This document shows, piece by piece, positions 49,731-52,813 of a DNA stretch of 64,000 nucleotides (position 1 is its first letter; each line of letters opens with the position of its first letter). Under the pieces are notes generated by a model that was given only the letters and a program-made list of their open reading frames with translations, had not been told where the DNA came from and did not search any database. The translations under genes and the position numbers were made by a program. Origin of the DNA: an uncultured Pelagibacteraceae bacterium. Lineage in GTDB: Bacteria > Pseudomonadota > Alphaproteobacteria > Pelagibacterales > Pelagibacteraceae. The stretch is taken from assembly GCA_902569975.1 (NCBI GenBank), contig CACFWD010000002.1, positions 49,530 through 113,529 of the forward strand. Direction: 5' to 3'.

Positions 49731-49815
49731 GGGCGAATGGCGGAATTGGTAGACGCGCACGACTCAAAATCGTGTTTTGAAAGAAGTGAGAGTTCGATTC
49801 TCTCTTCGCCCACCA
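49731..49815 (+). tRNA. tRNA-Leu (CAA), CCA encoded
   Basis: Acceptor GGGCGAA/TTCGCCC, anticodon loop CTCAAAA, variable arm, T-loop GTTCGATTC, terminal ACCA. Confidence 0.96.
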
Positions 49816-49822
49816 AAAAATT

Positions 49823-51556
49823 ATGGAATTAAAAGAAATAAATAGTCTGGTTGAACTTTTTTTTGATAAATTTGAACAATTAAGTTTAGATAACGAAAAA
49901 AATATAAAGAACACATTCTTAGTATCTCTTAAAGATAAAAACAAGAATGATAAATTTTTTTCTTATTCGTGGGAAATAACAAATGCTAAAATTACTTTTT
50001 TATCAAATTATTTAAAAAATAAAATATCCAAAGGTGATAGGTGTATTTTATTATCAGAAAATCGACCTGAGTGGCTTATATCTGATATAGCAATAATGAA
50101 TTCTGGAGGAGTGACTGTTCCACTTTTTACTACTTATTCTAAAAATGATTACAAATATATCATTAATGATTGCGAACCAAAAGTTTGTATTGTTTCAAAT
50201 TTAGAACAATTTCAAAAAATTAAAGAATATATTAAAGAAGATACAATTTTAATCTCAATAGATTTTTTTGATAAAGAGGTGGTAAGTTTAAATAAAATTT
50301 TTGAAAAAGTTTTTGATGATAATCCAAAAAATAATAACCAAATAAAAAACCAATATAATAAAAATATTAAAAGAAATGATCTGGCTTGTATAATCTATAC
50401 ATCAGGCACAACAGGAAACCCAAAAGGAGTAATGCTTAGTCATGGAGGAATTTTATCAAATTGCGAGGGAGCACAAGAAATTTTAAATTCATTAACTAAA
50501 GATGAAAAACCAGTTTTTTTAACTTGGCTTCCGCTATCTCATTCGTATGAACACACTGTTCAATACGTGCAAATAAAACTTGGAGCAAAAGTTTACTATG
50601 CTGAAAGTTTAGAAAAATTATTACCTAACATGAATATTGCACAACCCACAATTATGACAGCTGTGCCAAGATTTTATCAAAATTTATATAATAAAATTTC
50701 TTTAAATTTTTCAAAACAAAAGGGATTTAAAAAAAAATTAATAGAAAATACTATTTTACTAGGAACAAAAAATTTAAATAACGAAAAACTTAATTTTAAG
50801 GAAAAAGTTCTTAATTTTTTATGTGAAAAATTGGTAAGAAGAAAAATAAAAAAACAGTTTGGTGGTAAGCTTAAAGCCTTTGTTTCTGGTGGGGGTGCGT
50901 TAGATAAAAAAATAGGTGAATTTTTAAATGCTATAGGATTGCCAACCCTACAAGGATATGGTTTAACTGAGACTTCACCCGTGGTGAGCTGCAATATTCC
51001 AGGAAAAATCAAGATTGAGACAGTAGGACCACCATTTAAAACTAACAAAATAAAAATTGCTGATGATGGAGAGATATTAGTGAAGGGTGAAAATGTTATG
51101 CTTGGTTACTGGAATATGGAAAAAGAGACAAAAAATATAATTAAAAACGGATGGTTACATACTGGAGATATAGGAGAAATTACAAAAGATGGAAATTTAA
51201 AAATAACCGACAGAAAAAAAGAAATTATAGTTAATCTTGGTGGTGACAACATTGCACCATCAAAAATTGAAAATTTATTATGTCTTAATGAAAAAATTAA
51301 GCAAAGTTTCATATATGGAGATAAAAAAACTTATTTAGTTGCTTTAATTGTGACTGAAAGCGAGCAGAATAAGAAGGAAATTGAAATTTATTTAGAAAAT
51401 TTAAATAAAAGTTTATCTTTAGTGGAAAAAGTAAAGAAATTTAAATTAATTAATGAAGAATTTACAATTGAAAATGGAATGTTAACACCAACTTTAAAAC
51501 TAAAAAGAAAAAAAATTTTAGAAAAATTTAAAGAAGATTTAGAAAAACTTTATTAA
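49823..51556 (+). CDS. AMP-dependent synthetase / long-chain acyl-CoA synthetase
   Basis: IIYTSGTTGNPKGVMLSH, GYGLTETSPVVS, GWLHTGDIGEI. Confidence 0.93.
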   Translation: MELKEINSLVELFFDKFEQLSLDNEKNIKNTFLVSLKDKNKNDKFFSYSWEITNAKITFLSNYLKNKISKGDRCILLSENRPEWLISDIAIMNSGGVTVPLFTTYSKNDYKYIINDCEPKVCIVSNLEQFQKIKEYIKEDTILISIDFFDKEVVSLNKIFEKVFDDNPKNNNQIKNQYNKNIKRNDLACIIYTSGTTGNPKGVMLSHGGILSNCEGAQEILNSLTKDEKPVFLTWLPLSHSYEHTVQYVQIKLGAKVYYAESLEKLLPNMNIAQPTIMTAVPRFYQNLYNKISLNFSKQKGFKKKLIENTILLGTKNLNNEKLNFKEKVLNFLCEKLVRRKIKKQFGGKLKAFVSGGGALDKKIGEFLNAIGLPTLQGYGLTETSPVVSCNIPGKIKIETVGPPFKTNKIKIADDGEILVKGENVMLGYWNMEKETKNIIKNGWLHTGDIGEITKDGNLKITDRKKEIIVNLGGDNIAPSKIENLLCLNEKIKQSFIYGDKKTYLVALIVTESEQNKKEIEIYLENLNKSLSLVEKVKKFKLINEEFTIENGMLTPTLKLKRKKILEKFKEDLEKLY

Positions 51557-51685: not shown

Positions 51686-51714
51686 TTGACATAACTTGTT
51701 TAAAAAAATAAAAA
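51686..51714 (+). promoter_or_regulatory. Candidate promoter TTGACA-17 nt-TAAAAA for the polycationic microprotein
   Basis: TTGACA 51686-51691; TAAAAA 51709-51714. Confidence 0.55.
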
Positions 51715-51723
51715 TAAGTTAAT

Positions 51724-51744
51724 AACGAATCAAACTGATTCGTT
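51724..51744. promoter_or_regulatory. Perfect 9-bp inverted repeat AACGAATCA-aac-TGATTCGTT in the 5' leader
   Basis: Read directly from sequence; centred ~33 nt upstream of ATG 51767. Confidence 0.75.
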
Positions 51745-51766
51745 TAACTAAAAAAGGGAGCTAAAG

Positions 51767-51850
51767 ATGCCTAAGAGAAGAAAAAAAGCGGCAAAGAAAA
51801 CTAAGAAGAAAGCTAAAAAGAAAAAAGCTAAAAAAAGAAGAAGAAGATAA
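51767..51850 (+). CDS. 27-aa polycationic microprotein (MPKRRKKAAKKTKKKAKKKKAKKRRRR)
   Basis: ATG with upstream AAGGGAG; 14 Lys + 6 Arg of 27; flanked by its own promoter and terminator. Confidence 0.8.
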   Translation: MPKRRKKAAKKTKKKAKKKKAKKRRRR

Positions 51851-51870
51851 TAACTTAGTATTCTTTACAA

Positions 51871-51912
51871 AAAACGCTTCTCATCACGTTATGTGTGAGA
51901 GGCGTTTTTTTT
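51871..51912. terminator. Hairpin terminator, likely bidirectional (microprotein on +, CarD on -)
   Basis: AAAACGCTTCTCATCAC...GTGTGAGAGGCGTTTTTTTT; A-tract 5' and T-tract 3' allow use on both strands. Confidence 0.8.
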
Positions 51913-52813
51913 AATCTTCAATAGGATCTGCATCATCAGCTTCACTAATTGGCTCTTCAGCAGGTAAATTATCAGTAGGTGCTTTTGAAGCAGTTGTTGT
52001 ATCTGCAGGCTGTTGAGTTGCTCCTACGTTTCGTTTTAAGGCTTTATCAAGCTTTTTTTGTGTATCTTCTAAAGAAACACCTAATACAATTTGAAATTCT
52101 GATAGAATCCTCTCATATGCTTTTTCAAATAATTGTCTTTCGCTATAAGATTGATCAACCATAAGATCATCTCCTTTATTTAAATCTCTGACTACTTCGG
52201 CTAATTCATAAATTTTTCCAGAAGAAATTTTAGCTTCATATTCTTGAGCTCTTCTACTCCACATTGATCTTTTTATTTTCGGTTTACTCTTTAAAATAGA
52301 TATACATTTATTGACTTGGTTTATTGTTGCTAAAGCTCTAAGATGAGATTGCTTATTTACTGGAACCATTCCATTTGCTTTATCCTTTTCAAATTTTATC
52401 ACATAAGTTTCAACATCAATTCCACCAATATTTATTTTTTTGAATTCAGTTATTTGACCAACCCCATGTTTTGGATAAACAACATAATCTTTAACTTTAT
52501 ATTCTTTTTTTTCAGACTCTTGTTTTTTAACTTTTTTAATTTCCGGTTTTAATTCATTATTTTTTGGTATTCTTAAGTTATCATTTTTAATCTCACTTGA
52601 TTGAGTAATTTTGGTGTTAATCTTTTTATTTTTCTTTTTTTTATCTTTGAATACTTTTTTCTTAATTATTTTTTTTACTTTTTTTTTGGGTAAAATTTTC
52701 TTTATTTTAGTTGTTCTACTTTTTGTTACTTTTTTAACTTTTTTAACTTTTTTTTTTGAGGATTTTTTTTTAAAGGTTTTCTTTAAAATATTTTTTAAAC
52801 TTATCTTGCTCAT
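51911..52813 (-). CDS. CarD family transcriptional regulator with long Lys-rich N-terminal extension
   Basis: [46 protein letters not shown]-terminal ~70 aa dominated by Lys. Confidence 0.93.

Follow-up and report, generated by a model that had tools for sequence, protein, structure and literature searches.

A compact gene between an AMP-binding gene and carD

The window analysed here, a 64,000-nucleotide stretch of DNA from an uncultured SAR11 bacterium of the family Pelagibacteraceae, contains at positions 51686-51912 a unit of approximately 230 bp built around a single 27-codon open reading frame (ORF). Upstream, the unit is flanked by a gene encoding an AMP-binding protein of the acyl-CoA synthetase type (49823-51556, plus strand; PF00501, E = 2e-71), directly ahead of which lies a tRNA gene (49731-49812, plus strand; Rfam tRNA). 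Downstream, the unit meets a convergently transcribed carD (51911-52813, minus strand; PF02559 and PF21095), followed by a ferredoxin gene, a TerB-domain gene and a Suv3-like helicase gene. The predicted CarD protein carries a lysine-rich N-terminal extension of approximately 100 residues, with the RID domain following at 105-160 (Pfam RID), and similar extensions, variable in length, are found across the family.

Within the unit, whose promoter, leader and ORF read on the plus strand, a -35 box (TTGACA, 51686-51691) is separated by a 17-nt spacer from a probable -10 box (TAAAAA, 51709-51714), the latter assigned on the basis of AAAAAAATAAAAAT, a block conserved at this position within the genus. 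These elements are followed by a leader stem-loop with a perfect 9-bp stem (AACGAATCA-AAC-TGATTCGTT, 51724-51744), a ribosome-binding site (AAGGGAG, 51754-51760) and the ORF itself, which together with its TAA stop codon spans 51767-51850 and whose product, MPKRRKKAAKKTKKKAKKKKAKKRRRR, contains lysine or arginine at 20 of 27 positions. Between the stop codon and the terminator lies a 3' UTR stretch on the same strand (TTAGTATTCTTT, 51855-51866) that is strongly conserved in the genus. The unit closes at 51869-51912 with a terminator consisting of a hairpin (51869-51910) and a T run; the RNA of positions 51851-51912 is predicted to fold at -23.3 kcal/mol (z = -6.5), and the alignment contains 14 conserved pairs, two of which have changed on both sides. 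This terminator is probably common to the peptide gene and the convergent carD.

In a simple scan of the region, promoter-like sites were no commoner than in shuffled sequences, and the promoter by itself is therefore no proof of a gene; the proof lies in its conservation. TTGACAT is found in nearly all homologues, and of 153 homologous stretches, 133 place the hairpin 33 nt from TTGACA and the remainder deviate by no more than 1 nt (32-34 nt). The GGGAG of the ribosome-binding site is invariant across the aligned leaders. The original prediction had described the promoter, the ribosome-binding site, the basic 27-residue ORF and a strong hairpin terminator; all four can be read directly from the letters, and the fixed spacing, the invariant GGGAG and the terminator fold bear them out. 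The leader hairpin, which is also conserved, was absent from that description.

Phylogenetic distribution and coding signature

A DNA search of 61 relatives recovered the locus from most genomes of the genus, and in public SAR11 genomes the same small ORF lies beside carD in 79 of 80 CarD loci. A covariance model built on the promoter-leader-start region matched 202 of 297 sampled genomes of the order, representing five genera of one family, and a sixth genus with the gene was reached through carD. When genomes of the genus and family that scored E below 0.05 with this model were re-searched, the ORF was present in 19 of 19. The arrangement of AMP-binding gene, peptide ORF, terminator, carD and fdxA is maintained in the genus and in genera g5, g6, g8, g9 and g10, such that the search of SAR11 genomes for carD/fdxA synteny proposed with the original prediction finds the locus conserved across genera of the Pelagibacteraceae. 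These genome searches rest on DNA patterns, the leader covariance model and carD synteny; a profile HMM of the peptide missed a genome known to hold the gene (G061), and HMM negatives were not counted.

Near-complete genomes of the genus without a model match usually lack carD as well, and in three model-negative genomes that have carD a contig terminates in the ORF, beside it or in carD. The apparent absences that were checked are thus contig ends, and all ten single-contig genomes checked carry the gene (seven of the genus, two of g5 and one of g6). Many SAR11 assemblies break within approximately 100 bp of the ORF, making the gene seem absent from otherwise good genomes (G004:C11:1, G001:C29:1, the end of G005:C14, G093:C9:14, G202:C8:10, G284:C26:1, G076:C5:55 and the ends of L193 and L194).

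Neither synteny nor pattern searches located a comparable ORF in f2, the sister family within the order, where a different gene lies downstream of carD. The start-region pattern, which is strict, had no match outside the family among 289 genomes of the class; divergent forms may occur beyond the family. A phage origin was considered and rejected, with no match among phage records or viral contigs. The nearest named relatives of the CarD protein are all from SAR11, nearly all of them filed under Pelagibacteraceae or Ca. Pelagibacter. Secondary DNA matches in the search of relatives stem from a different gene, encoding a protein, probably secreted, whose N-terminal part is FecR-like and which ends in a very long KKKATKKK-type tail (L051:209-1186 and L052:101-1441). 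This gene adjoins one for an apparent CHASE2-domain sensor, the domain names here having been assigned by reading, without a profile search.

Intact ORFs were found in 157 fetched stretches, some of which overlap, and comprise 90 distinct nucleotide sequences encoding 60 distinct peptides of 21-35 residues; in two other genera, the ORF is 36-50 codons long. Stops or frameshifts, named in the original prediction as what would speak against a gene, were not seen among the homologues. For ORFs of equal length, 148 substitutions were inferred on minimum spanning trees and compared with 2000 simulations in which the same substitutions were placed at random on the same bases. With tree edges taken as independent, third positions received 90 substitutions versus 48.8 expected (sd 5.1, simulated maximum 66), and 80 codon changes were synonymous versus 42.7 expected. 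Changes to acidic residues (22.9 expected) and to stop codons (6.1 expected) did not occur. These excesses and absences show that selection acts on the peptide, and that the ORF encodes a selected peptide is close to certain. Synonymous positions vary while the basic fraction stays between 0.68 and 0.83, and the claim of an autonomous gene for a polycationic peptide is now strongly supported by its conserved synteny, its conserved signals and this clear coding signature.

The original prediction had also raised the alternative of a small RNA whose A/G-rich body happens to be open. A regulatory RNA of this type, with the peptide as a by-product, would account for the conservation of the leader hairpin, the 3' UTR stretch and the terminator, and the transcript would be only approximately 190 nt. 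However, the synonymous excess together with the lack of changes to stops and acidic residues refutes an ORF left open by chance, the ribosome-binding site and start codon are conserved, and changes in length are in frame. The structure conserved outside the ORF corresponds to the needs of a small stable mRNA, and Rfam returned no match. We consider a regulatory RNA very improbable; the transcript may be a dual-function mRNA.

Conserved features of the leader and 3' UTR

The leader (51721-51766) is predicted to fold at -8.5 kcal/mol (z = -3.3). Over 23 diverse leaders, 99.4% of cells in the stem are paired and the changes are all wobble-compatible, with G-C becoming G-U in genera g8 and g9, and A-U becoming G-U. 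The stem, with CGAATC as its left arm, and the GGGAG are retained in this alignment, and genera g5, g6 and g7 have a different stem at the same position of the leader. As the spacing between the -35 box and the hairpin is fixed, the predicted start of transcription is no more than a few bases from the hairpin, which probably constitutes the 5' end of the mRNA. A stem at the extreme 5' end is known to shield bacterial mRNAs of the ompA type from decay, and by analogy the leader hairpin may protect its own message.

Other causes of this conservation were considered. The leader dyad contains GAATC and GATTC, both of which fit the CcrM methylation site GANTC, but methylation was rejected because the right-hand site is lost in g8 and g9 (GATTT), where RNA pairing is kept through G-U. 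A general operator was likewise rejected, the dyad GAATCA-N(0-8)-TGATTC being present once in the assembly. The dyad may be a gene-specific DNA operator, although the G-U changes would break such an operator. A known SAR11 RNA motif was also discarded, as a survey of Pelagibacter RNAs describes no motif at carD (PMC2704228) and the unit has no match in Rfam. At the other end of the transcript, the conserved 3' UTR stretch is partly complementary to the region of the ribosome-binding site. Pairing of CTTAGTATTCTTT with this region is better than that of shuffled 3' UTRs, and native pairs have no consistent advantage over clade-swapped ones.

Composition and possible function of the peptide

The 60 distinct peptides consist of lysine, arginine, alanine, threonine, proline, serine and glycine only. 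Family-wide, the products are 21-50 residues of lysine, arginine, alanine and threonine (rarely proline, serine, glycine or valine), essentially without hydrophobic or acidic residues, and the forms of 21-35 residues have a net charge of approximately +15 to +24. Length is loosely constrained, spanning 21-35 residues within one genus and shifting by KKA- or KKKA-like units; peptides from other genera include MAKRRKKAKKATKKKAKKATKKKGKKKKATKRRKKR (g5), MAKKRKKAKKTSKKRKASRRKPAKKAKKRRR (g6) and MAKKRKKAAKKKAPAKKKKVAKKRKPAAKKKAPAKKRKPAKKKTAKKRKR (g7), the g7 form being 50 residues long with KAPA and KPAA motifs. Arginine accounts for 34% of the basic residues in the first seven positions and 67% in the last six. 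Between the ends it accounts for 6 of 535 (1.1%), leaving a middle of lysine and alanine, although a single common transition converts AAA to AGA. This confinement of arginine to both ends is a new fact. The charge-neutralising composition proposed originally holds insofar as 68-83% of residues are kept basic, but the limitation of arginine to the two ends means that more than charge is constrained.

The peptide matches no curated protein family in the collections searched (Pfam, NCBIfam and PDB): 16 diverse members and the forms of 31-50 residues had no matches in Pfam and NCBIfam at E values up to 10, and no relative was found among PDB sequences, with the caveat that profile searches serve short low-complexity queries poorly. 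In the papers searched, nothing was found on a lysine-rich small protein of SAR11.

The peptide is likely to be a general nucleic-acid polycation, and DNA or ribosomal RNA is probably what it binds. We favour DNA as the likeliest partner, with rRNA second; that DNA is the main partner has, in our estimate, slightly less than an even chance. The same tentative standing, just short of even, applies to the reading as a whole, in which a free-standing polycation resembling a histone H1 tail would condense or screen nucleic acid, principally DNA. A vegetative-type promoter of its own would give rise to a short monocistronic mRNA, stabilised at its two ends by the leader and terminator hairpins. The free peptide would be disordered and act like the C-terminal tail of histone H1 or a small protamine: clustered arginines at the two termini would hold phosphate backbones, and the lysine/alanine linker of variable length would neutralise charge. 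Together, these ends and linker would leave nucleic acid condensed or screened, most likely in the nucleoid of these very small cells. On the other hand, a peptide this charged would attach to RNA, polyphosphate and other polyanions no less readily than to DNA, and the sharp partition of arginine and lysine exceeds what bulk charge neutralisation calls for and could reflect a specific RNA site. More speculatively, the near-minimal peptide, a lysine/alanine linker capped with arginine, may serve SAR11 as a dedicated general nucleic-acid condenser, a bacterial analogue of a free H1 tail or protamine that has been missed through its shortness and its fragmentation by trypsin.

Ribosomal RNA would be the target if the peptide were a ribosomal micro-protein working like bS22, mS38 or eL41, i.e., as a short, very basic helix in the 16S rRNA pocket at h2/h27/h44/h45, left unannotated on account of its size. 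Proteins of the bS22 type are 24-33 residues long and 55-65% basic, bind a structurally conserved rRNA pocket, and are encoded by tiny genes that annotation misses, as in Borrelia (PMC10618245, PMC10085706). The SAR11 peptide has a comparable size, a higher basic content and an arginine-rich C-terminus. A search of 38 genomes of the order, with control matches in Corynebacterium, yielded no bS22-family gene, so the site could be free. However, the peptide has no match to the COX24_C (PF08213)/bS22 profile, and its alignment to a bS22 sequence (mean z of 0.66 versus order-shuffled peptides) is at the level of composition. It also has essentially no hydrophobic residues and no histidine, and a fixed pocket should not tolerate lengths that range from 21 to 35 residues in one genus and up to 50 in the family. 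We regard a ribosomal role as the main rival reading, though an unlikely one.

Less probable again is a polycation serving another polyanion (polyphosphate, RNA condensates or the envelope), or a partner of CarD or RNA polymerase. Polyphosphate has a precedent as a target in Pseudomonas, in which the H1-like protein AlgP is associated with granules of this polymer (PMC9239181), whereas an envelope target is at odds with the lack of any hydrophobic or signal-peptide segment. A CarD partner would fit a gene that always adjoins carD, the product of which is itself lysine-rich at its N-terminus, but carD is convergent and is not co-transcribed. SAR11 gene order is conserved in general, and synteny with carD alone therefore says little.

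SAR11 are the commonest bacteria of the ocean surface, and few free-living cells have genomes as streamlined as theirs. A 230-bp unit that is retained family-wide, complete with a promoter and terminator of its own, should therefore be important to these bacteria. The ORF falls below the usual ORF cut-offs, and trypsin, which can cleave at almost every bond of the peptide, would leave it nearly invisible to proteomics based on this enzyme. The peptide may be a component so far overlooked in SAR11 DNA packing or ribosome building. The question is open to direct experiment, given that cultured SAR11 strains are available and that synthesis of the peptide costs little.

Relation to known basic proteins

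The H1-like proteins (the tails of AlgP and PhaF, and Chlamydia Hc1 and Hc2) have in common with the SAR11 peptide a lysine/alanine-rich, disordered sequence whose length varies by repeat units. The KAPA and KPAA motifs of the g7 form resemble AlgP repeats (PMC9239181), and the size of Chlamydia Hc2 varies with the number of lysine-rich pentamers (PMC2848022). In contrast to these proteins, the SAR11 peptide is a tail alone, without a globular domain, and measures 21-50 residues versus about 150-240. Its arginine is confined to both ends, and this short low-complexity query matched no H1-like family profile in Pfam or NCBIfam.

With bS22, mS38 (AURKAIP1) and eL41, the peptide shares tiny size, extreme basicity and a small gene of its own that is easily missed by annotation, and differs in its variable length and its lack of hydrophobic residues and histidine, the similarity being one of composition only. 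Size and basicity are also common to bTHX, for which NCBIfam, Pfam and PDB sequences gave no match, a weak test for so short a query; the glycine and aromatic residues of bTHX have no counterpart in the SAR11 peptide. Compared with protamines and other small arginine/lysine-rich DNA condensers, the peptide is bacterial, has a lysine/alanine core and shows no sign of replacing other DNA-binding proteins; what it has in common with them is a minimal polycation with clustered arginine.
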